A DNA stretch of 41,335 nt from Acidobacteria bacterium UBA7540 (GTDB lineage: Bacteria > Acidobacteriota > Terriglobia > UBA7540): positions 1 through 41,335 of the forward strand of contig DLMI01000009.1 of NCBI GenBank assembly GCA_002478145.1, read 5' to 3'. Numbering within the stretch: the first letter of the stretch is position 1; each line of letters opens with the position of its first letter. The position numbers and the translations under genes are program-made. The notes beneath the pieces are model-generated. The model saw only the letters and a list, made by a program, of their open reading frames with translations, was not told where the DNA came from and ran no database searches. Shown here piece after piece: positions 13,671 through 29,340 of the stretch.

Positions 13671-14977
13671 TCACGTGTCACGCCAAGGTCCTCCGGGCGG
13701 CCAGCGCATTGCTGGTTTCAGGCTGCGTATGAGTGCAAGTGTCGGAGGCATCAGGAACTCATTCAAGGCCACAGTAACCTCTGGAAACGCAGTCTGGTCT
13801 GACGCCAACCCGGCCTTGCGGACGAACGCTTTCCACTGCGCTAGCTTATCGGGGCTGGCCGAGAATTCCGGAGTCAGAGCGGGAGGAGTTTGTGTCGGCA
13901 CGGCGGTTCTTCGTCGAGTGAAGGTGCCCTTGATAGCTTGGCTGAGCAGCAGGCCGCTGAACTCGAATCTGCGCGACAGAAACCAGAGGTCGTAGCAATC
14001 TCGCATCCTGCTGTTTGCAATGCCCAGCATCACCATCGCCTGAAACTTTTCCGCCACGACAGTCTCCCGACGATAGGCTCGCAGGTGAGGAGCCGGAAAC
14101 CCAAGAATTGTGGGGAATTCGACGTCCTCCGGTGGCGGAGTGACGGCGTCCCCGAAGCCGACGTCCACCTGAATTTGGATTCGGGCCTGCTCCAAGTGGG
14201 CTATCAGAATAATGCGCACGCCAAACTCGAGATCCTCTCGGATATCATTCACCACGTTGCGCAGGTCGAAAGTCCCCAGGAAATCGCGGAGTTTCTGCAG
14301 GGTTGATTCCCGCAAACGCTGCGGCTTGCCGTCCGGCTGGTCCCCCAGCCGGTCGCGCAGGTGGCTCACCAGCTCCAGCAGCGAGGCCCGCATCACCTGC
14401 TGGATCTCGCTACAGGCTTCCGACATTGCCACCACGGCCTTTTCGCGTTCCTCTTGGAAGAATTGGGCCGAAATCTCTCGAAGCTGTTCCGGCACGCCAT
14501 AGCTGACGTATTGCCACTGAAGGTGAAGTGGGAGCGCACCTCGTCTACGGGTGGGTAGTCAGCTGGGTTATAGAGCGTGCGCAGCCGCCCAGCGGCTTCT
14601 TGGCAGAGGCGCGGATAGGCGCTGAGAAACGACTCCACCAGCTCGCCTCGTCTATCCTTGAACTCGTGCAGCCTCTCGTCCACCGTCTCCACCAAGCCCA
14701 GCGGCAAGAGGTGAATGCCGACCTCGAAGGGCAAGCACATGTCGTACAGGAAATGACGGATGTCGCCATCGAGGGTGCGGATGGCTTGCAACTCCGGCGA
14801 GTCGAGCAGAGTCTTGGAGACGCGAATTAACGCCTTGTCGGCATCAACTGCGACCTGAGAGGAGCTGACCTTTCGACTGTTGCCCAGCAAGCCGAGATGA
14901 AGTTTGATGAAGACTGTTTTCCTGGCAAGGTCTGCGCCAGGTTCCTGGATATCCAGGATTGGTAATGCTGTGGCCAT
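13671..14977 (-). pseudogene. DUF3150-like gene, frameshifted and fused to an AbiEii nucleotidyltransferase remnant
   Basis: The start is ATG at 14977 after AAAGGAGGATGAA. The first segment (RKTVFIKLHLGLLGNSRKVS, SSQVAVDADKALIRVSKTLL, ETVDERLHEFKDRRGELVES) looks like a DUF3150-type protein of integrative elements. At about 14513-14518 one base is missing: FTFS should continue WQYVSYGVPEQLREIS, but the frame shifts there. The rest of that protein runs in the second frame to about 14240. It then passes in frame into the C-terminal part of an AbiEii/AbiGii-type nucleotidyltransferase toxin (AHLEQARIQIQVDVGFGDAV; YRRETVVAEKFQAMVMLGIA; SRMRDCYDLWFLSRRFEFSG). Neither parent gene is intact. Confidence 0.75.
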
Positions 14978-15122
14978 TTCATCCTCCTTTGTGTAGTGGA
15001 AATTCTTATGACGGTACGCAGGTTTGGCGTTGGAAGGAAGACTTCGCGATTTGTGAAACTCTTCCGCGCTTCCAAGCGTACTAATCCTCAGAGCTATGGA
15101 TTCCCGGCGAAGGGAGGGAAGC

Positions 15123-15401
15123 GTGATACTCAAGATGAACGGCCCATTTCGGATTGATAATCTTCGGCGTTACCCGTCAGAGACGGTCGAAGCGCTGCGC
15201 AGCGCACTGGTGGCCGGGGTGACCTCCACTGCCGACCATCATCGCAAGAATTTCTACGACCTCGAAGCCGGGGATAACGTCTTTTACATCCATTTGAGCC
15301 CAACCGGAACCGTGCTCTTGCTCGCCTGCTGGGGGAAAGAGCCTGCGCACCAAGCCATCCCGCACGAAGCGCCGCTCCCCGAAGCGAGGGCGTACTGCTG
15401 A
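15123..15401 (+). CDS. Small conserved hypothetical protein, 92 aa
   Basis: The GTG start at 15123 is chosen because AGGGAGG lies 7 nt upstream; ATG codons at 15096 and 15135 are alternatives. The product contains ETVEALRSALVAGVTSTADH and the core KNFYDLEAGDNVFYIHLSPT followed by GTVLLLACWGKE. This looks like a compact beta-rich domain and is shared in my memory with other small proteins of integrative elements, but no function is known. It is divergent from the DUF3150-like gene and convergent with the AAA+ ATPase gene. Confidence 0.65.
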   Translation: MILKMNGPFRIDNLRRYPSETVEALRSALVAGVTSTADHHRKNFYDLEAGDNVFYIHLSPTGTVLLLACWGKEPAHQAIPHEAPLPEARAYC

Positions 15402-15454: not shown

Positions 15455-16993
15455 TCAGGCCTCGGAATTCGAGGGTGGCATGACGGTGAGCGGCCCATCC
15501 AGATCCCGCATGACGCGTCGCCGGGATGCGGGCGGGTTCTCCTGGTACTGGTAAACGCCCGGTGTCGAGGCGCTGATAAACTTCCCTGACGCCATTTGGC
15601 GCAGTGCCTTGATCTGCTCAGCCGCGGAACGTGAAACCGGCACGATGTAGCGCGCGGCCTGCAGGAGAGTTATTCCCAAGCGATGCGCCTTCCGGCAGCA
15701 CTCTTTGATTTCCGCGCCTGTCCAGCCTTCGTCGTTGGGTAGGTCGCCTGACACGTTGTACTTCTTGAGATAGATTCCCCAGATCGTCTCCCGCTCCTCC
15801 TCCGAGGGCAGGTCGAAGAAGAACGTGCCCAGCGTGAAGCGCCTGCGCAGCTCGGGAGGCAAGCTCGCGATGGAATTGCAAGTCGCAATGAACAGCATCC
15901 TCCCTTGCGAGACCGCGTCAATGATCTGGAGCGCCGTACGCAAGCGTTCGGTCGAAGCACCCACCAGAGAACTCTCCATGGCCGGCAAGTCGAAAGCAAT
16001 CGTGGGGATGCCTGCAGTACTGCCCGTGGCCTTTGCTGCTGCACTCTTGGCAGCCCCCGCTGGACCGACAAACACAATTCCATCCGCCTCACAGTCCTGC
16101 ATGTACGTCAGGATGGTCCCGGTCATCTCCGTCTTTACACCGGAGAGGTCGGTACCGGTTCCTGCAAACGCCTTCTCAATCTCATCAATGAACACGACAA
16201 CGCGTGGAGGATCAACACCTCGAAGCACTGCCCGCAGGAAGCTCTTGACGTTCTCGACCCCGCCAATATCCTCAAAGGTCTCACCGCCTCGCCACACCGA
16301 CAGGCCCTGTGTCTGCTCAATGATTTGGCGCTTGCCCTCCCAGAGGTCTTCCGTATCGAGCTGGCGCTTGACCAATGAGATCGCCAGTGCCTGTTCCGCC
16401 GGGAATGCAGCTAGGCCAATCAGGGCGTCAACCGCCTTATCGATCACCTGGCGCTCGGGCTCATCCAGCTTGGCCGCGTTGAAAGTCTCCCGAACAATCT
16501 GCTCCAGGTGAGTGGTGGAAGGCAGAGGCTCGTCAAGGACGAGAACGTCCTGGCCCAATTCCTGCGGCAAGGTCGCGCCGGGAACTGTTAGCAGGACCAG
16601 CGTCCTGCCCGTCGCCCTGAAGGGGTCTCGCAGGTCCCAGATCCCTTGCATCACTCCGGGGTCATTCCAGAAGCGGTGAGCGTTCGAGTAAAGCAGGAGG
16701 CCATCCTCGCCAAGCTGCTGAGCCAAAAGCAGGGCATCGACCGGCCCAATCGTCGCAGCCTGACGTTCACCAAGCACGCGCGCCAGTTCCTCGCCGCTGT
16801 CCCGGCCGATCGCATAGAGGCCGCGGACCACTTCCCACCCGAGCAGCGGTGGAAGCTCGCGGCCTTGCTTGAGAGTCTCGATGATGAAATGGGTTGTGCT
16901 TGCTGGGTCGGCAGTGCGTACCGCCACAAGCAGCGTCGAGACACACCGCGCGGCATGGAACGCCGACGCAAACTCCTCCATAGATCGAATCAT
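15455..16993 (-). CDS. AAA+ ATPase with Walker B placed before Walker A (Ycf46-related)
   Basis: The 512-aa protein has an N-terminal region like Ycf46-type AAA+ proteins (GLLLYSNAHRFWNDPGVMQG, TLPQELGQDVLVLDEPLP, residues about 95-160) and the entry motif TFEDIGGVENVK at 239-250. Next comes the Walker B strand RVVVFIDEIEKAFAG (264-278) with helix TGTILTYMQD. Only then comes the P-loop GPAGAAKS (310-317), followed by SSLVGASTERLRTALQIID. Sensor 1 (MLFIATCNSI, 366-375), PPELRRRF and a sensor-2-like GAEIKECC close the core. In normal family members Walker A precedes Walker B, so the two segments are exchanged. The P-loop also has alanine in place of the last glycine. The ATG at 16993 has AAAGGAGC upstream. 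It is part of the decayed element. Confidence 0.85.
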   Translation of the reverse strand: MIRSMEEFASAFHAARCVSTLLVAVRTADPASTTHFIIETLKQGRELPPLLGWEVVRGLYAIGRDSGEELARVLGERQAATIGPVDALLLAQQLGEDGLLLYSNAHRFWNDPGVMQGIWDLRDPFRATGRTLVLLTVPGATLPQELGQDVLVLDEPLPSTTHLEQIVRETFNAAKLDEPERQVIDKAVDALIGLAAFPAEQALAISLVKRQLDTEDLWEGKRQIIEQTQGLSVWRGGETFEDIGGVENVKSFLRAVLRGVDPPRVVVFIDEIEKAFAGTGTDLSGVKTEMTGTILTYMQDCEADGIVFVGPAGAAKSAAAKATGSTAGIPTIAFDLPAMESSLVGASTERLRTALQIIDAVSQGRMLFIATCNSIASLPPELRRRFTLGTFFFDLPSEEERETIWGIYLKKYNVSGDLPNDEGWTGAEIKECCRKAHRLGITLLQAARYIVPVSRSAAEQIKALRQMASGKFISASTPGVYQYQENPPASRRRVMRDLDGPLTVMPPSNSEA

Positions 16994-17132
16994 GTACGTG
17001 CTCCTTTCGAGAAAGGACTCTTAACCCACATTTCCATTTTTTGGTTGCACCTTTGAATCTTCGAATCGTCGCCGTCATCACTATTCATGCGGGTGTGAAC
17101 GCGATGAAGACGCTCCGGAGGTCTTGTACGCA

Positions 17133-17462
17133 ATGGGTGAGATACAAAACCGGCCCTTTCAGCTCTCCTTCAACGCCCCTCTCAAGGTAGATTTCCAAGG
17201 TTCCCGCGTCACTTCCGACGGCGGCTTAGTTCTGGTGCGGGAATTCGACAAGCAACTCGGCTTCGGAGAACTCATCGAGCAGCACCTGAAGGTCGGCAAG
17301 TGGTCACTCACCAGCTTGCAGCAGAGGCTGGTGAAGGCGGGCGGTCGCCTGCTGAAACATACCCGCTACTACTGGCTGCTGCTGGCGGAGAGCCTTCTGA
17401 CGCGGCGGCTCCTCGGAGCCATGCTGGGCAGGATCGCGAGGCTGCCGGTTCCCACGGGGTAA
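17133..17462 (+). pseudogene. IS1380-family transposase with large internal deletion
   Basis: The first 52 codons are the N-terminus of an IS1380 transposase (NRPFQLSFNAPLKVDFQGSR, VTSDGGLVLVREFDKQLGFG, ELIEQHL). The last 55 are its C-terminus (WSLTSLQQRLVKAGGRLLKH, ARLPVPTG). The whole DDE catalytic core between them is missing, with the junction at about 17286-17297. The reading frame is kept across the junction. It is a non-autonomous or dead element. The 3' flank to about 17650 resembles IS1380 downstream sequence. Confidence 0.8.
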
Positions 17463-17816: not shown

Positions 17817-20800
17817 ATGATGAAAATGACGCGGCGAGATTTTCTGGAGGTCACCGGAGCCGGTTTGGGCGGCTTGGCGCTGAAAGAGGGTTCCATGTTT
17901 TCGGCCCAGCCGGCGGAACTCTCTGGCGGGGTGGCGGCGCTTTACGAAAAGTTTCTCGATCCGGACAGGAAATACAGCATCCGGCCGTTTTGGTTTTGGA
18001 ACGGCGCCCTAACGGGCGAGGAGCTGGGACGCCAAATTCGCCAAATGGTTGAGCACGGCGTTTACGGCGCCTATGCCCACAATCGCGACGGTCTTCAGAC
18101 TCGTTATATGTCGGAAGAGTGGTGGCAGGCACTGGGCGGAGCCTTGCAGGCCTCCAAGGACGCGGGATTTTGTCTCTGCATGGTCGACGAGTTTGAGTGG
18201 CCCAGCGGTGAGGCTCGCGATTATTGGATGCCGGGGACCAACAAGAGCCACGTGGTCGAAGCCAATCCCGAATTCCATTCGCGACGCATGCGGTCAACGG
18301 AAAGTATCGTCCAGGGGCCGAAGCGGTGGAGTTCGCCCCTCACAGAGAAAACGGTTGCGGTGGCCGCCGGAAAACGCCTGGGGCCAGACCGCTTGGATGG
18401 CAATACCCTGCAAGCAGTAGCTTGGGAAAAGGGCGCCAAGGAAGTCTCCTGGGACGTGCCCGAAGGAGAGTGGCTCATCACCGCTTACGACCTGGTACCG
18501 GCGATGCCCAACGGGGGTACGGTGGACCTGATGAACCGGGAGGCGATTGGCGCATTTATCAAGCTCTATTACGAGGAGTTCTATAAGCGATATAGCCAGT
18601 ACTTTGGCAACGCCATGCCCGCCACCTTTGCCGATCACGAGGGCTCTTACGGAGACAAGCTGCCGTGGACGCCCCTCCTTTTCGAAACCTTCCGGCGCAA
18701 GGTGGGTTATGATCTCATTCCCTACCTTCCCGGCCTCATCTACGAGATTGGCCCCAAGACGGAGAAACTCCGCTGCGATCTCCTGGACACGATCAGTGAA
18801 TTGTACTCCGACAACTTTTGGAAGCAGGTCAGCGACTGGTGCGGCCAGCACAACATCTATCATTCGGGGCATGTTTGGGAAGAGTCGCTCTTCTGGGGGG
18901 CCGCGTGGCAAGGCGACTTCTATCGTATCCTACGTTCCATGAGCATTCCAGGCTGCGACACATTGATGGAATGGGCGCACGAGTCGGTTTGGCTGAGGGA
19001 GGTCGCTTCCGTTGCCGCCTTCGAGGGAAAACACGTGGTTTGCGAGAATCAGGGCGTGCAAGGCAGCGATTCCTACTTGAGCCCCGAAATGATGCGCCGA
19101 GTTTCCAACTGCCTGGGCGCCTGGGACATCGGTGAGTTCGTTCCGCACGCCTTCAATTATGATCTGGCGCGCACCAACTATCCGCCGGACTGGTTCCGCG
19201 GGCAGCCGTACCTGCCCTGGTTTCGTTTCTACGCGGACCAGATGCGGCGGATCAGCTTCGTCAATTGCGAAAGCCAGCGCCTGTGCGATATTGTTGTGCT
19301 TTATCCACAAGTGTCCATTTGGGGACAATCGTCATCGGCATTCCGTAACGACGATTTCACCCACCTGTTAGGGAACGCCGACTGGAGCCCCGACGCGGTG
19401 GAGACCAGTGAGCAATACGCTGATCTCAAAATGCGCCTTACCGAAGCGCGTTACGACTTTATGGTCGCGGATGATTACTACCTCGCAAAGAGCGAGCTGG
19501 GCGGCGGCCGCCTGCGCATCAACAATTCGGAGTTTCAGGTTTTGATTCTTCCGCCCATGTCGACCACGCGGCGGAGCACGGCCATGCGGGTGCGCGACCT
19601 TTACCAGGCGGGTGGGACGGTTATCGCTCTGCGCCGCCTCCCCTATACCTCGGTGGAGTCCGGCCGCGAGGACCCGGAGTTGAAAGCGATTTGGGAGGAA
19701 GTATTCGATCTTCATCCCAACGTTGAACCTTACGCTATGCGCAAGAGCGCAAGCGGCGGGCGCTCTTATTGGGTGCCAGGTCATGTCACCGACCTCGTGG
19801 AGATTATTCGTGAGGTATTGGATCCTGACATCGAACTGGTGGAAGGGCCGACCGACAACCTTTACGTATTGCACAAGCGGAACGCCGGTGTTGATCTCTA
19901 CTGGGTTGTCAATGACAAGGCCGAGGCTCGCACCCACATGCTGCGATTCAAGGCGAAGGGCCGGCCGGAAAAATGGGAAGCGCCAACGGGCAAGCGCTCA
20001 CCCCTCTTCTATGAAACGCAGGGGGACAAAACTCTCGTACGGCTGGCCCTGGGATCTTGGGATGCCGCGTATGTGGTGTTTGATCCCACGGGCCCGGCCC
20101 AACCCCTGGCGCTCGCGGCGACAAACCTGGAAGAGTTTCATGTGTTGCGCGCCGACGAGAAGCAAGTGGTGGTGCATGGACGTGGGGCGCCCGGCGATAA
20201 AACGGGGTACGTGGAATTGCAGAAGGGCCAGACCCGCTACCGGGGAGAGTATCACTCCAAGAGTGCGCTCCCGCTTGAAATCTCGGGCGAGTGGAACGTC
20301 ACGGTGGAAGCACCATCCATCGACTCGCCCTATGCCCAGGTGCGCGAGGATCCTACGGGCCGAGGCCTGAAGGAGCGCTGGTACGCCAAGACCGGCGACA
20401 AGGCGAGTTGGAATCCCCTTTGGCTTGCTCCGCAGATGCGCTCGATCCAGAAGTGGAATACGATTGGCCTGTTCCCCAACCCCGACGACCACGGCTTGGA
20501 GGAAGCGTACGCGCCGGAGAGCGACGAACGCATCGATTATGGCAAGGATTACATCGGCAAAGATGGCCAGCAACTCCACTGGGTGGAATTCAACTCTGCT
20601 GACGATTCCATTGTGCCCCTGGCGTCCACATGGAATGGAACCATCAAGGTGGCAGGCGGGCCTTACGGTCCGGACTGCTACGTGGTCGACTATGGCCGTG
20701 TGCTGCGCGCCCCCGTGATGCAGGGAACGGTTTACCTGCAAACCAACGTTTACCACCCGAAAGGGGGCCTGGCGGTTATGCTGCTGGGAGCGCCTCACCC

Positions 20801-21659
20801 CACCACCGTTTTCGTGAATCATGAGAAAGTCTACTCGCGCTTCATGCGCCCCCTCTATTTTGACCCTATCGATGGGTTTGCGACACGCATTCCGCTTACC
20901 CTCAAGAGCGGATGGAACAGCATTCTGATCAAGTTCCTCCACAACAGTCCGGATGACGGCAAGGCGCCGCAATGCACTTGCCGCATCGAACAGGCCAATG
21001 GGTCCGCCATCGAAGGCCTGGTGTCGAATTCGAGAATTGTCAGTGATCCGCAGACAGCGCCGCAAGGCTATGGCTGGCTGAGCTTCGCGATTCCACGCGT
21101 TGCACGTGCGTTGCGTGTGCCTCCGTTGCGGGATGAGTACCTCGTGTTTGTCGGTGATAAACAGGTTCCCGCCGCAGCGGAAATCCCTCTTCCCCGTGGC
21201 GCGCGCACGGTGACCTTGCGGGTCAGCGCGCGGGAAGTGCTCGATCATCCCTTTGCTTTTTCCACGGCCTCCGCGGTGCTTCCGCTTGGAACATGGAAAG
21301 TGCCGGGGCTGGAACACTTCTCCGGGTCGATGGTCTACGAAATGTCCGTGGATGTACCGGCGCTGCTGCTGGCGGAGCGCGTCATCCTGGATTGCGGCGT
21401 GGTCGGGGTGTGCACAGAAGTCTGGGTGAATGGCAAGGCCGTCGGAAAGCGGCCGTGGGGGCCGTTCGTCTTCGACGTGACGGAACAACTCCACCTCGGG
21501 AAAAACCAAATAAAGGTCCGGGTGGTCAATACCGAGGCCAACGCCCGCGCCGTGGGGACTTGGCTCGACCATCTCGCGAACATCGATGTAGACGGCTGGC
21601 ACGGACCGGCCCGTCTGGTACCGTTCATCGAGCGAGAGATCACCTGTTCGCCGGTCTGA
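17817..21659 (+). CDS. Tat-exported GH106-type alpha-L-rhamnosidase-like glycoside hydrolase, 1280 aa
   Basis: The N-terminus TRRDFLEVTGAGLGGLAL is a twin-arginine signal, so the folded enzyme is exported. Residues 50-75 (YSIRPFWFWNGALTGEELGR, QIRQMVEHGVYG) match the start of the GH106/rhamnosidase-like TIM barrel. Further barrel features are CMVDEFEWPSG, PATFADHEGSYGDKLPWTP, FRRKVGYDLIPYLPGL and GHVWEESLF. The C-terminal 400 residues contain beta-sandwich, galactose-binding-like modules (VFVNHEKVYSRF; CTEVWVNGKAVGKRPWGPFV). The likely substrate is an L-rhamnose-containing glycan, though family specificity is broad. It sits between two broken mobile genes and is intact, so it is probably the cargo of a later insertion or rearrangement. 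Confidence 0.82.
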   Translation: MMKMTRRDFLEVTGAGLGGLALKEGSMFSAQPAELSGGVAALYEKFLDPDRKYSIRPFWFWNGALTGEELGRQIRQMVEHGVYGAYAHNRDGLQTRYMSEEWWQALGGALQASKDAGFCLCMVDEFEWPSGEARDYWMPGTNKSHVVEANPEFHSRRMRSTESIVQGPKRWSSPLTEKTVAVAAGKRLGPDRLDGNTLQAVAWEKGAKEVSWDVPEGEWLITAYDLVPAMPNGGTVDLMNREAIGAFIKLYYEEFYKRYSQYFGNAMPATFADHEGSYGDKLPWTPLLFETFRRKVGYDLIPYLPGLIYEIGPKTEKLRCDLLDTISELYSDNFWKQVSDWCGQHNIYHSGHVWEESLFWGAAWQGDFYRILRSMSIPGCDTLMEWAHESVWLREVASVAAFEGKHVVCENQGVQGSDSYLSPEMMRRVSNCLGAWDIGEFVPHAFNYDLARTNYPPDWFRGQPYLPWFRFYADQMRRISFVNCESQRLCDIVVLYPQVSIWGQSSSAFRNDDFTHLLGNADWSPDAVETSEQYADLKMRLTEARYDFMVADDYYLAKSELGGGRLRINNSEFQVLILPPMSTTRRSTAMRVRDLYQAGGTVIALRRLPYTSVESGREDPELKAIWEEVFDLHPNVEPYAMRKSASGGRSYWVPGHVTDLVEIIREVLDPDIELVEGPTDNLYVLHKRNAGVDLYWVVNDKAEARTHMLRFKAKGRPEKWEAPTGKRSPLFYETQGDKTLVRLALGSWDAAYVVFDPTGPAQPLALAATNLEEFHVLRADEKQVVVHGRGAPGDKTGYVELQKGQTRYRGEYHSKSALPLEISGEWNVTVEAPSIDSPYAQVREDPTGRGLKERWYAKTGDKASWNPLWLAPQMRSIQKWNTIGLFPNPDDHGLEEAYAPESDERIDYGKDYIGKDGQQLHWVEFNSADDSIVPLASTWNGTIKVAGGPYGPDCYVVDYGRVLRAPVMQGTVYLQTNVYHPKGGLAVMLLGAPHPTTVFVNHEKVYSRFMRPLYFDPIDGFATRIPLTLKSGWNSILIKFLHNSPDDGKAPQCTCRIEQANGSAIEGLVSNSRIVSDPQTAPQGYGWLSFAIPRVARALRVPPLRDEYLVFVGDKQVPAAAEIPLPRGARTVTLRVSAREVLDHPFAFSTASAVLPLGTWKVPGLEHFSGSMVYEMSVDVPALLLAERVILDCGVVGVCTEVWVNGKAVGKRPWGPFVFDVTEQLHLGKNQIKVRVVNTEANARAVGTWLDHLANIDVDGWHGPARLVPFIEREITCSPV

Positions 21660-21713
21660 TCCTCGTTCCCCGGCCCGCCCTGCTGTGCACGGCGGCATGG
21701 CACGGGCAGTCCA

Positions 21714-22328
21714 ATGGTTCTCAAGATCTTCATCGGCGCCGTCAAACCAGAAGCGCTGAGCTGCGCCCCGGTGAATGCCCAGCGGCCCACGGATGGCATT
21801 GCCGTACCTGCCGGACTTCAACGCATCGTGCTTGGGAAAGACCTCGACTCCTTCCCGCCCCCTGCCTCCCTTGACCGGGATACCCAACCGCAGGGCAAGA
21901 CCGCAAACGTAGATCCGGCAGTCCCGCGCTGGGAGCGGCTCCGCCAGGAACATCCGGAGATATCCGCCCCGATGACTCTTCTCAAGAGCCGACTCCACCC
22001 CATCCTGCCTGAGGTAGAAGCCGAGCTTCAGGAGATCCGTAAGCGAATCCTGATAGTCCGCGTCGACGGCCACCCACTTCGAGCACTGGGTGGCGGGGTT
22101 GATCGAGTAGAGGCCGATGGTGATTTCGCCCTCGAGGTGGCGGCGGATTGTGTCAGGTGTCAGGCTGAGCCCCTGGCCGGTTTTGTTGTCCTTGGGACGG
22201 TAGTAGTAATGCCGGGCGCTTTCCGGGTGGGGTCGGTTGGACTGGATGGTGTAGGCCCGACGGTTGACGAAGAGGCGAAAGTAATCCGCCACCACACTGG
22301 CCGGCGCATTTAGACGAAGCATCCGCAT
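21714..22328 (-). pseudogene. Archaeo-eukaryotic-type primase of TOTE conflict systems, truncated
   Basis: The start is ATG at 22328 after GGGAGGAGAGA. About 205 residues match the AEP primase domain: the catalytic D89/D91 pair in KWVAVDADYQD, the SHRGGYLRMF motif (118-127), VEVFPKHD (161-168) and the RYGNAIRGPLGIHR loop. Upstream of these are FRLFVNRRAYTIQS and the YYYRPKDN region. Homology stops at about 21714, 55 bp from the end of the convergent GH106 gene. The helicase or nuclease part normally following the primase is missing. An open frame continues antisense through GH106, but it has no primase-like content. Confidence 0.8.
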
Positions 22329-24353: not shown

Positions 24354-26591
24354 TCACTCAAAGAGTACAAGCTGGCGGGCACAGCGAATCGGTTCGACCC
24401 TGGGGATGGAATAGAGGGTTGGCTCCTCGCTCGGCATAGTCTTCGGCCCGGAATAGTGGAAGCTATTCCGTTCTCGGAATAGCTTCCACACCGCGTCCGC
24501 ACTCTCCCCGATGCCCTTCTCCGTCACCAGTTCCCGCGCCATCGCCATCAGGATGTCATCACCTTCGTCGATCGCCTGCAGGCCGTCAGTTGCGAACTTC
24601 CCTTCCAACGCCAGCGAGACCAACAGCTTCTTCCCCATCAGCCTCAGACATGCTTCCTGCATGGTGCCGGTGTAGTAGAAGAACTTAACGTTGACGTTCG
24701 ACCACTGTCCAATCCTCCAGGAGCGCCGGCTGGCCTGCCGCAGGGTGTAGATGGAATAGCCGGTCTCGTAAAAGAAGATGTCCGGGAAAGACCACAGGTC
24801 GAGTCCCGTCTGAACCAGACGCGGGTGTGCGATCACGACCTGAACGCCCGCCCGAAGTTGCCTCTCGTACCAGGACTCACGCTGCTCCGGGGCAACCTCC
24901 GTGGTCAGCACCGCAACCCTGATCCCCTCTTTGGCCAATATCCTCTCCAAGCGCCGTGTCACGTCGCGCTTCTGCGTATGGACCGCGTAAACCTGCACCT
25001 TCCAGCCGCGCTCAAGCGAGGCTTTGACTTCCTCCACCAGCCGCCGCTCCTTGGTATAGACAAAGTCCTCATCCAGGTCACGCGTAGCTGCGATCAGGAA
25101 CGGCTCACGACGCTGGGTTTCGGGATTGAACTCACGCCCAATCAGGTCCCCGAAACCGAAAGGCCGGTCGGGATAAGCGAGGAGAGCATTCAAGGCGACG
25201 CTCGCGACCGACTGGTTGCCTCGATGCTCGCGCAGGGCCTTCTTGATGTCCTGTTCTAGGTCCTCGTAAGCCTTCTGCAAAGGCTGATCCATCTCCACGC
25301 TGACAACTTCTTCCTGGTAGGGAGGAAGAGCATCGGAGATATCTTCCAGCGACACAAAGGCACCAAGACTCATCAAGAAGCGGCCGAACAGCAGGGGTGA
25401 GGCTCCTGGCCGATGGCGGAGCCGGGTGGTGACGCGGGCCTCAGAACAGGCGTTGTCGGCCGGCTCAATCACCGTGATCTTCTCCAGCAGCCCATAGGTT
25501 TCGGTAAAGGCTCGAACACCGGCTTCCCCGTATTCAAAGCCTTCTTCTAGCATTCTGGGGGATTCAAGACGAAACAGAATGTTGAAGAGTTCGTCTGCGT
25601 AGCCCCCGAGCAGTGTGCCGGTGAGCACCGCAATCTGGCGGGCGGACGATGCCAGTGTGCCTAAAGCGTTCCCCTGGGCCGTATCCCCTCCCTTCAGCTC
25701 GTGAACTTCGTCAGCTATGGCGTAATCGAAGAACCCGTCCATGTACCGGCCGATGAAGTCGACGGGTGCAAAGCGTCGAATCTTCTTCCCATCTGCCTCC
25801 CAAAGCGCGCTGTAGAGCGGCCGGCGGGCATGGTTGGTTCCATCACCTTGACCGAGCGTTTCGCTGAGCTTCACCTTCTTGAAGTCCATCGCCAACAGCC
25901 GTTCGCCTTCTTTCCCGAGGTAGACCGGAGCCCCACTGTCAGGATTGACGACGCTGCCCTGATAACGCCCGCACCGGGCGACCTGGTAGGCGTGCTTCCA
26001 GAAATACCCGAGCTTGGCGCGATCCCGGCCGACCACGAACAGCGCCGGAGAAGAGCAAATGGAATCCCAACGCTTACGAGCCGAAGGTGAGGTCCTGCGC
26101 AGGCGCAACTCGCTCAAGCTAGTCCGCAATCCCTCGCGCAGGATGCGTTTGTTTCGCAGCTTGACTTCGTTCACGCCGTGGTGACTGTTGGAGTTGGTTG
26201 GGGTCCGTAGCCCGTCGACGATGAACACGCGAACACGCGGAAGCGTGAGGATCGCTTCTCGGCACCATTTCTCGACCAATTGCGGCGGAACCATCGCGAG
26301 AGCCGTAAAGGGCCGGTCCTCAGCGTGGGTTTGAACGGCACCCAGTGAGATCAGCGTCTTGCCTGTACCGCACTCCGCAATCACAGCACCCGCGCGGGCC
26401 TGCTGCCAACGTCGGACCAGACCCATGATGGCGAGGGTCTGGGCCGGGTAGGGCTTCCGCAGGAGCTTGCTGATCAGGGGTGACGGTGGGTCGTCGATGG
26501 AATGCAACGGCGGGTATGATTCAACGATCCTCTCACCCAGTTCCGACGAGCACATCCTGAGGTAATCACCGATCGACTCCGGTATGGGCAC
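24354..26591 (-). CDS. SNF2-like superfamily 2 helicase/ATPase, 745 aa
   Basis: The GTG at 26591 is chosen because AAAGGAGAAGACT stands before it; a TTG nine codons upstream lacks such a site. Motif I is AECGTGKT (72-79), motif II DEVH (294-297) and motif III LTGT (323-326). The C-terminal RecA domain has VQVYAVHTQKRDVTRRLERI, RLVQTGLDLW and motif VI QASRRSWRIGQ (619-629), the SNF2 signature. About 200 residues separate motifs I and II, including a variable insertion (GYFWKHAYQVARCGRYQGSV). It probably translocates on DNA in the replication or defence function of the integrative element. It is intact, unlike most neighbours. Confidence 0.87.
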   Translation of the reverse strand: MPIPESIGDYLRMCSSELGERIVESYPPLHSIDDPPSPLISKLLRKPYPAQTLAIMGLVRRWQQARAGAVIAECGTGKTLISLGAVQTHAEDRPFTALAMVPPQLVEKWCREAILTLPRVRVFIVDGLRTPTNSNSHHGVNEVKLRNKRILREGLRTSLSELRLRRTSPSARKRWDSICSSPALFVVGRDRAKLGYFWKHAYQVARCGRYQGSVVNPDSGAPVYLGKEGERLLAMDFKKVKLSETLGQGDGTNHARRPLYSALWEADGKKIRRFAPVDFIGRYMDGFFDYAIADEVHELKGGDTAQGNALGTLASSARQIAVLTGTLLGGYADELFNILFRLESPRMLEEGFEYGEAGVRAFTETYGLLEKITVIEPADNACSEARVTTRLRHRPGASPLLFGRFLMSLGAFVSLEDISDALPPYQEEVVSVEMDQPLQKAYEDLEQDIKKALREHRGNQSVASVALNALLAYPDRPFGFGDLIGREFNPETQRREPFLIAATRDLDEDFVYTKERRLVEEVKASLERGWKVQVYAVHTQKRDVTRRLERILAKEGIRVAVLTTEVAPEQRESWYERQLRAGVQVVIAHPRLVQTGLDLWSFPDIFFYETGYSIYTLRQASRRSWRIGQWSNVNVKFFYYTGTMQEACLRLMGKKLLVSLALEGKFATDGLQAIDEGDDILMAMARELVTEKGIGESADAVWKLFRERNSFHYSGPKTMPSEEPTLYSIPRVEPIRCARQLVLFE

Positions 26592-26671
26592 AGTCTTCTC
26601 CTTTCGCTTTGAGTGCAACGAGTAAATGCGATTCGTGTGGCGCCGGACCCGCGCGAACAGGTGGGTGATTC

Positions 26672-27918: not shown

Positions 27919-29340
27919 AGTCTGTGTGGCAACTTGGGGATCAGGTCGCATAAGAATTCATTTTGGCGGCGCTGAGGTTGTGCAGGGGTTGTTTCGAGTG
28001 TCTGTGCCGGTCACTTGGACCGGCTTTTTGCGCTCCACCTCGGGTTAGCCCGAGAGTCTTTCCTCGACCTGCGTTTTTTGGAGCAGTGCTGTGCGCCACA
28101 TTCGGGTCAAATTGAACGCCGTCGCTGCCAGGGTGACTTCCACCGCCACCTTCGCCAAGCCGCGCATCCGAAAACGTCGCAGGTCGCGTTGTTGTTTGAG
28201 CACCCCAAACACCGGTTCGATGATGGCCTTGCGGCGTCGATAGACGGCTTGCCCGGGGGGCCTGCGCAGTTTCTGCACCATGCGTTGATGCTCGGGCTTT
28301 CGCCAGCGCCGTCGCCGCCCACCACGCCCCAGGTTCAATTCCCGCGCCTCGTAGGGGTCGGGCACGTAGCCGTCGATGCCGCGCGTCTCCAGTCCCACCA
28401 GGTTCTCGTCCGAGTACAAGCCGCTATCCCCGCTCACCCGCTCGGGCCACTCCCCGCAGCGTTCCATCGCCCCATCCACAACCGGCAGGAGCAGTTCATT
28501 ATCGCTGCTCTCTTGTCCCACTCGCTGCTCCACAATGAGATGATCTTCTGTGACCGCCATCGCCACCGTATAGCCCAGCGTGAAACCGCGCCCTTGCTTC
28601 AAAAAGCGACTGTCCGGGTCGGTGCGCGAAACCTGCTTGAGCCCCGTCTTCTTCAAGACCTGCAGCCGGCGGGGGATTTCTTCCAGACGCTCTTCCAGAG
28701 CCTGCACATGTTGCGCCGCCACTTGCGTCCCCGGCGTTTCATTCGGATCCCTGGCGTCGCAGGCCTGCTGCCAGTGGCGAATCTGCCGGCGGATCTTCGC
28801 CCGTTCCGCCCGCAACTTCTTCACCGAATCCACCCGATGCCGCGAAGCGTTTGCCCCTACCCGCGTGGTGTCGATGGCCACGTGCCCCAGCTTCCCCATC
28901 CCCAGTCGCCGCGCCCCTTCCACCACCTGCGTGAACACGTCGTTCAGCGCTCGGCGGTGCCGCCGCCGAAAGTCGTTCAACGTCCAGTAATCTGGCTCCG
29001 CTCCCCCCGCCAGATACCGAAACGCCAAGTCCTCGCGCACCCGCTCCTCCAAACGATGCGACGAGGTCATCCCTAACGCGTAGGCGTACAACCACACCTT
29101 CACCATCAGCGCCGGAGCATACGCCCCCCGCCCTTCCTCGACGTAGTCCTCTTCCAAACCGCTCAAGTCTAATTGCTCCACTACCCGGTGGATGAAAAAG
29201 CAGAGATGGTTCTCTCCCAACACATCCTTCACGCTCGGCGGCAGCAAATACGCCTGCTCGGGGTTGTAAGGCAGAAATCTCATCGCGACCCTCCTGCCCT
29301 CATCTCATGCAACTCAACTGCCAGAGTTTTCACACAGACT
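27919..29340 (-). mobile_element. IS1182-family insertion sequence
   Basis: The element is bounded by imperfect terminal inverted repeats. The left end reads AGTCTGTGTGGCAACT. The right end, read inward on the opposite strand, is AGTCTGTGTGAAAACT. It encloses one complete transposase gene. Its right end directly abuts the stop codon of the ISNCY transposase remnant, suggesting insertion at the edge of that element. Confidence 0.7.
28045..29283 (-). CDS. IS1182-family DDE transposase, 412 aa
   Basis: This transposase belongs to the DDE group. The N-terminal DUF772-like part (YLLPPSVKDVLGENHLCFFI, LMVKVWLYAYALGMTSSHRL, DYWTLNDFRRRH) is followed by the catalytic region. Acidic residues are visible in VAIDTTRVGANAS, VSGDSGLYSDEN and AIIEPVFGVLKQQRDLRRFR (YRRRKAIIEP box). 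The frame is uninterrupted, and the ATG has AGGAGGGTCGCG in front. It is likely active or only recently inactive. Confidence 0.9.
   Translation of the reverse strand: MRFLPYNPEQAYLLPPSVKDVLGENHLCFFIHRVVEQLDLSGLEEDYVEEGRGAYAPALMVKVWLYAYALGMTSSHRLEERVREDLAFRYLAGGAEPDYWTLNDFRRRHRRALNDVFTQVVEGARRLGMGKLGHVAIDTTRVGANASRHRVDSVKKLRAERAKIRRQIRHWQQACDARDPNETPGTQVAAQHVQALEERLEEIPRRLQVLKKTGLKQVSRTDPDSRFLKQGRGFTLGYTVAMAVTEDHLIVEQRVGQESSDNELLLPVVDGAMERCGEWPERVSGDSGLYSDENLVGLETRGIDGYVPDPYEARELNLGRGGRRRRWRKPEHQRMVQKLRRPPGQAVYRRRKAIIEPVFGVLKQQRDLRRFRMRGLAKVAVEVTLAATAFNLTRMWRTALLQKTQVEERLSG

Follow-up and report, generated by a model that had tools for sequence, protein, structure and literature searches.

The window, by which we mean the whole stretch of 41,335 nucleotides analysed here, encodes what is very probably a Ycf46-like AAA+ ATPase whose β3-α3 unit was transposed in a single event, and which would act with a DUF3150-like partner as an ATP-driven remodeller in phages and mobile DNA. 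Walker B precedes Walker A in this protein, and the same order is found in 429 of 476 related proteins. It is filed here as a segment-permuted subclass of the Ycf46-like AAA ATPases.

Motif layout of the window protein

The core strands of the window protein follow one another in the chain as β3-β1-β2-β4-β5, with the FIDE motif ahead of the P-loop (Table 1). The initial annotation had described exchanged Walker segments in an intact frame, and both its reading of the order and its positions for FIDE, TYMQD and GPAGAAKS are reproduced exactly in the ORF at 15455-16993. In the AlphaFold2 model described below, TYMQD (residues 296-300) belongs to the Walker B helix (286-300), the VGASTERLRTA helix spans residues 344-362, and the sensor-1 strand (366-372) comes directly after this helix, which follows β2. 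The arginine that we take to be the arginine finger, R385, is assigned by its position. Residues 1-235 contain no P-loop pattern.

The Pfam AAA family (PF00004) matches the protein with 46.4 bits against a cut-off of 21.2, in three separate stretches of which the best spans residues 306-358 only, and a sequence search of the PDB gave weak partial AAA matches only. Because Walker B precedes Walker A, profile searches see the permuted family in pieces.

Table 1. Features of the ATPase gene and its surroundings in the window
Feature	Position	Strand	Remarks
Further DUF3150-like piece	13671-14495	minus	other frame; runs into AbiEii-like remnant (~13797-14309)
5' part of DUF3150-like partner gene	14393-15133	minus	frame change; 15 bits, under Pfam cut-off of 24.9
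Segment-permuted Ycf46-like AAA+ ATPase	15455-16993	minus	512 aa, ATG start
Sensor 1 (T371, N373), candidate arginine finger R385, lid	15539-15901	minus	residues 365-485
β1-α1-β2-α2	15902-16087	minus	residues 303-364; Walker A GPAGAAKS 310-317 at 16043-16066
Moved unit β3-α3	16088-16219	minus	residues 259-302; Walker B FIDE 268-271 at 16181-16192
Linker	16220-16288	minus	residues 236-258; FEDIGG motif and helix α0 (247-258)
N-terminal domain, AAA-like	16289-16993	minus	residues 1-235; aligned with the D1 part of p97/Cdc48
Transposase fragment (PF13701)	17124-17462		upstream side of ATPase
Further transposase ORF	28045-29283		upstream side of ATPase

Conservation of the order among relatives

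Relatives were gathered from a protein search (1852 among 7998 scored candidates, the best 120 used), a scan of viral contigs (best 80 of 218), a scan of genomes with one per species (best 80 of 212), a further viral scan that used a divergent alignment (best 80 of 258, largely the same contigs as in the first) and a search with a Nitrospira moscoviensis protein (at least 120 matches, mostly new). Since the scans retain the top of longer lists, the relatives sampled are the best-scoring parts of each.

Motif order was called with separate HMMs for the four segments, which replaced a crude motif pattern. By these calls, 429 of the 476 proteins have Walker B first, 45 are canonical and two are undecidable truncations. 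The Walker B-first set comprises all 228 database proteins, all 80 viral loci of the first scan and all 80 of the second, 39 of the 80 genome loci, the cultured phage Tunturi_3 and the window, and the order occurs in phage contigs, Acidobacteriota, Nitrospira, Armatimonadota and others. One canonical call (L127) was a 205-residue truncated protein without the Walker B part, and its removal reduces the canonical, Ycf46-like relatives from 45 to 44, namely 38 genome loci (mostly Planctomycetota), two phages and four plasmids. The two groups also separate by similarity to the window protein: the 192 permuted loci of at least 430 residues score at least 308 bits with at least 35% identity, and the 44 canonical loci at most 218 bits with at most 34%.

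The crude pattern had called 113 of the 120 best-scoring close homologues Walker B-first, two Walker A-first and five unscored, a first look only, since its first "Walker B" was often an N-terminal LDE near residue 150; both Walker A-first calls were caused by a spurious GxxxxGKS at about residue 61. Applied to 87 loci it gave 72 Walker B-first, seven Walker A-first and eight unscored, and one of the seven (L002) was a false call, the other six being canonical relatives.

In whole genomes, permuted copies appear as a single profile match of about 490 columns, and the matches of other copies fragment, for example into columns 11-256, 303-361 and 364-498. Nitrospira moscoviensis carries two permuted copies and one with such a fragmented match, which we infer to be canonical in order. 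The gene looks accessory, because only two of 149 genomes in the phylum of one locus (L093), its own included, match at E 1e-30 when ten candidates per genome are scored.

Transposase pieces and broken genes adjoin the ORF in the window, as might be expected if a normal AAA gene had been locally rearranged in this contig by misassembly or misannotated. The probability of such an artefact is negligible, and the reading is already refuted, because independent homologues carry the Walker B-first order, in phage contigs, in the finished Nitrospira moscoviensis chromosome, in a cultured phage and in many metagenomes, and because the permuted proteins are under purifying selection. A homologue with near-identical flanks and the normal order, which that annotation had named as grounds for rejection, was sought among the 476 scored proteins and none was seen, the best canonical relative being 34% identical.

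Residue conservation and selection

The classic AAA features, namely both Walker motifs, sensor 1 and a conserved arginine beyond it, are present and invariant or nearly so in the 364 permuted proteins that remain after removal of exact duplicates and a length filter. E271, K274, G310, K316, T371 and R385 show no variation at all, D270 is retained in 362, and G313 and N373 in 363 each. Residue 315 of the P-loop is alanine in 259 proteins, glycine in 65, serine in 29 and cysteine in 11, and because it varies, the AKS P-loop is a common variant outside the swap. The GAAKS loop that the initial annotation called unusual is a variable feature of the family. P-loops of the AKS type also occur in MCM and RavA proteins.

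The core of the permuted ATPase is under purifying selection: in seven pairs, some of which share members, dN/dS is 0.024-0.082 over residues 236-400 (numbered by the first protein of each pair) and 0.050-0.132 over the whole gene. The earlier view that the swap is conserved and probably functional is thus borne out by conserved order, monophyly and purifying selection, together with the confident model and the coevolution described below.

A probable single origin of the transposed unit

A tree was built from the four segments, aligned apart and then concatenated (65 sequences, 53 permuted and 12 canonical, in 458 columns). It separates permuted from canonical proteins with a FastTree support of 1.0 and a branch of 0.69 substitutions per site; the same split is obtained from each segment alone (0.977-0.998) and from the two collinear blocks together (1.0). 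With Geminocystis as root, the nearest canonical group is mostly from Planctomycetota, followed by a Manganitrophus plasmid protein. The permuted proteins form one clade, consistent with one rearrangement event.

The junctions in a canonical protein (L130, segments shortened), 'KP-RGVLLLG...ADAMA-CILFVDE...SDH-VFFVGTSN', and those in a permuted one (likewise shortened), 'DPPR-VVVFIDE...MQDC-ADGIVFVG...AVSQG-RMLFIATCN', place the joins in loops just ahead of strands. The Walker B unit β3-α3 would have been transposed, once, ahead of the Walker A unit β1-α1-β2-α2, in an ancestor whose gene neighbourhood may already have held DUF1257-like, DUF2997 and DUF3150-like genes. A possible route is tandem duplication of the stretch from β1 to α3, after which the outer pieces would have been lost; among the 476 proteins, no duplication intermediate with two Walker B or two Walker A units above 8 bits was seen.

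Predicted fold and coevolution

AlphaFold2 with 111 alignment rows predicts a fold like the usual AAA+ one, with a pLDDT of 92.8 and a pTM of 0.85; with 15 sequences only, the pLDDT is 54.9. The model matches the D1-D2 arrangement of p97/Cdc48, and VIA-align superposes it on p97 D2 (6g2v) over 198 residues at 2.6 Å with 25% identity. This alignment is preferred because the Foldseek matches to PDB entries give large rmsd values over whole two-domain chains. Against viral models, Foldseek places three phage proteins named ycf46 on top, with TM scores to the query of 0.59-0.71.

Direct coupling analysis was carried out on 363 sequences, with an effective number of 158 and shared ancestry handled by reweighting alone. 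Its top couplings tie the Walker B helix and strand to α2 (289-348, 265-362 and 297-359), and two, 265-362 and 264-363, bridge the ancestral α2-β3 junction. The AAA+ sheet has the spatial order 5-1-4-3-2, with parallel core strands and with the helix-to-strand loops along one edge. When the strands are assigned to slots, the canonical sheet by motif ranks first of 60 arrangements, with a close runner-up (13.41 against 13.37), and β4-β5, which are non-adjacent in the canonical sheet, are third of the ten strand pairs by coevolution.

The moved β3-α3 unit probably retains its slot in three dimensions, and coevolution and fold matches alike fit a Walker B motif that adjoins the P-loop. Since the helix-to-strand loops share one edge of a parallel sheet, the transposition would need only three rewired loops, α0 to β3, α3 to β1 and α2 to β4, and the elements could stay in place in space. 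A truly changed fold, in which the strands take the AAA+ slots by chain order, with Walker B in the β1 position and the P-loop strand elsewhere, has chain order itself as its one argument and is most improbable, as slots by chain order rank 46th of 60 against first for slots by motif, the catalytic residues are retained and p97 D2 superposes as closely as given above.

Coevolution is blind to whether contacts lie within or between chains, and the same couplings could arise if the moved β3-α3 completed the domain of a neighbouring subunit in a domain-swapped ring. There is a small chance of this arrangement, against which stand the confidence of the monomer model, with ten-residue blocks at 84-98 through most of the core, and the link of only six residues (259-264). 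Retention of the slot within one chain is the reading followed here.

Gene neighbourhood and state of the window copy

Neighbours were counted at loci with 4 kb on either side, thinned at 90% identity (82 permuted and 17 canonical), with HMMs built from the same neighbourhoods, so that the counts are descriptive. A DUF3150-like gene within 5 kb is the most constant neighbour (80/82 permuted and 15/17 canonical loci), followed by a DUF1257-like (Ycf35) gene (57/82 and 16/17), a DUF2997 gene (55/82 and 16/17) and a radical-SAM/4Fe-4S gene (16/82 and 1/17). Of the neighbours compared with Pfam, the one intact DUF3150 protein, both DUF2997 proteins, the one Fer4_12 protein and one of three DUF1257 proteins score above the cut-off, the other two of the last lying just under it. 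A small CDFC-motif protein is encoded at 8/82 permuted and 0/17 canonical loci (L003, L091 and L095 among them), and a conserved protein of about 200 residues lies near the ATPase at 11/17 canonical and 0/82 permuted loci (L133, L145, L153 and similar ones).

The cultured phage Tunturi_3 (L081) carries the set as gp103 (AAA), gp102 (DUF1257-like), gp101 (DUF2997-like) and gp96 (DUF3150-like). Its gp96 (18693-19652) carries an HNH endonuclease annotation, and its match to the DUF3150-like family is at 1e-102. In the available parts of the main text of the Tunturi paper (PMC11924767), neither 'ATPase' nor 'AAA' occurs.

The window resembles another locus (L001) in DNA at 14250-14997, at the DUF3150-like partner. 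As the DUF3150-like gene is split, DUF1257-like and DUF2997 ORFs were not found in the window with the neighbourhood HMMs, and a transposase piece lies upstream, the window copy probably belongs to a mobile element that has decayed but in which the ATPase ORF is intact, and with its partner broken it may itself be a remnant. Where the initial annotation suggested use by integrative elements, the carriers seen here are for the most part phage contigs and scattered loci of an accessory kind, not demonstrated integrative elements.

Elsewhere in the window, an ORF at 19998-22328 (minus strand) has an AEP-TOTE primase domain that is confined to residues 33-206, and the gene looks truncated because the rest of the ORF overlaps a GH106 gene on the opposite strand. 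An SNF2/helicase-C ORF lies near it (24354-26618, minus strand), and the two are perhaps from one conflict system.

Relation to known ATPases

The permuted proteins share with Ycf46-like ATPases of phages, plasmids, Planctomycetota and cyanobacteria the N-terminal domain, a DIGG-like motif, the SLVG stretch, sensor 1, the lid and the neighbourhood of DUF1257-like, DUF2997 and DUF3150-like genes, and the HMM for their N segment matches all 12 canonical sequences of the tree. Around the canonical copy on a Treponema plasmid, this gene set was not seen. The permuted family differs in the reordered Walker A and Walker B units, in its identity of at most 34% to the 44 canonical relatives and in its separate clade on a long branch. 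PHROG 8638, a canonical Ycf46-like family, matches in pieces, and the profile positions fit the canonical order. Because its motif order departs from the canonical one that known members have, the family is a permuted sister clade and not Ycf46 itself.

In comparison with p97/Cdc48 D1-D2, it is the second domain that holds the permuted core. GxxxxGK[ST] occurs in the first 200 residues of only 6 of the 429 permuted proteins, and no alignment with p97 was obtained before residue 208.

Among other P-loop NTPases, the parts available of reports on the circularly permuted GTPases YRG/YlqF, YqeH and cpRAS describe an altered motif order with the domain retained (PMC2430557, PMC2741578). Theirs is a circular permutation of the whole domain, whereas here the transposition concerns an inner AAA+ segment and leaves both ends where they were. 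ComM, compared with RadA, also has an altered chain order with the spatial arrangement retained, as far as the accessible text of PMC11612176 goes; the exchange in that case is between the Lon and ATPase domains as wholes, and the ATPase core is not described in that text as permuted. In the portions available of other candidate reports, PMC7824862 and PMC10853773 concern permuted methylases, PMC538276 and PMC7617512 have permutation terms in their references only and PMC7203096 has none. Searches of an open-access library turned up no paper that describes a permuted AAA+ domain.

Function and implications

We infer that the permuted ATPase hydrolyses ATP, probably in a hexameric ring, and that it would remodel or unfold proteins of phages and other mobile DNA. 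The DUF3150-like protein, whose gene is linked to that of the ATPase, may be its constant partner or adaptor. As for the relatives, a DUF2997-ycf35-fed7 cluster is reported for cyanobacteria of the Synechocystis type in the available part of PMC4284462, and Synechocystis that has lost Ycf46 shows a lower activity of the carbonic anhydrase EcaB (Jiang 2015, as told in the accessible text of PMC7496141).

A rival reading would make the family a defence ATPase against phages, akin to IetA, and not a protein of phages and mobile elements. In its favour, IetA scores best among the NCBIfam models for the window protein, which also matches no other PADLOC family. That assignment is very unlikely, given that the IetA matches are partial (residues ~355-441) with 31.8 bits against an NCBIfam cut-off of 510, and that the canonical Manganitrophus relative scores higher against IetA (58.5 bits), as general AAA resemblance would give. 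In IetAS defence, IetA is partnered by the adjacent subtilase IetS; among the neighbour families covered by the HMMs, the constant one here is the DUF3150-like gene.

A further-reaching proposal, which we offer tentatively and consider rather doubtful as a whole, is that the family has a distinct AAA+ topology of single origin, in which a Walker B helix tied directly to the P-loop strand would alter the coupling of hydrolysis to the pore loops, and that AAA, DUF3150-like, Ycf35-like DUF1257 and DUF2997 proteins might make up an undescribed phage machine.

The AAA+ domain ranks with the most conserved folds, and its motif order is used for recognition. That a large natural clade carries Walker B ahead of Walker A suggests an AAA+ core tolerant of rewiring, and such a clade lets one ask, in a natural setting, on which connections allostery depends. 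The gene neighbourhood in phages has cyanobacterial and chloroplast relatives in Ycf46 and Ycf35, and the cultured phage Tunturi_3 is a possible system in which to study it.
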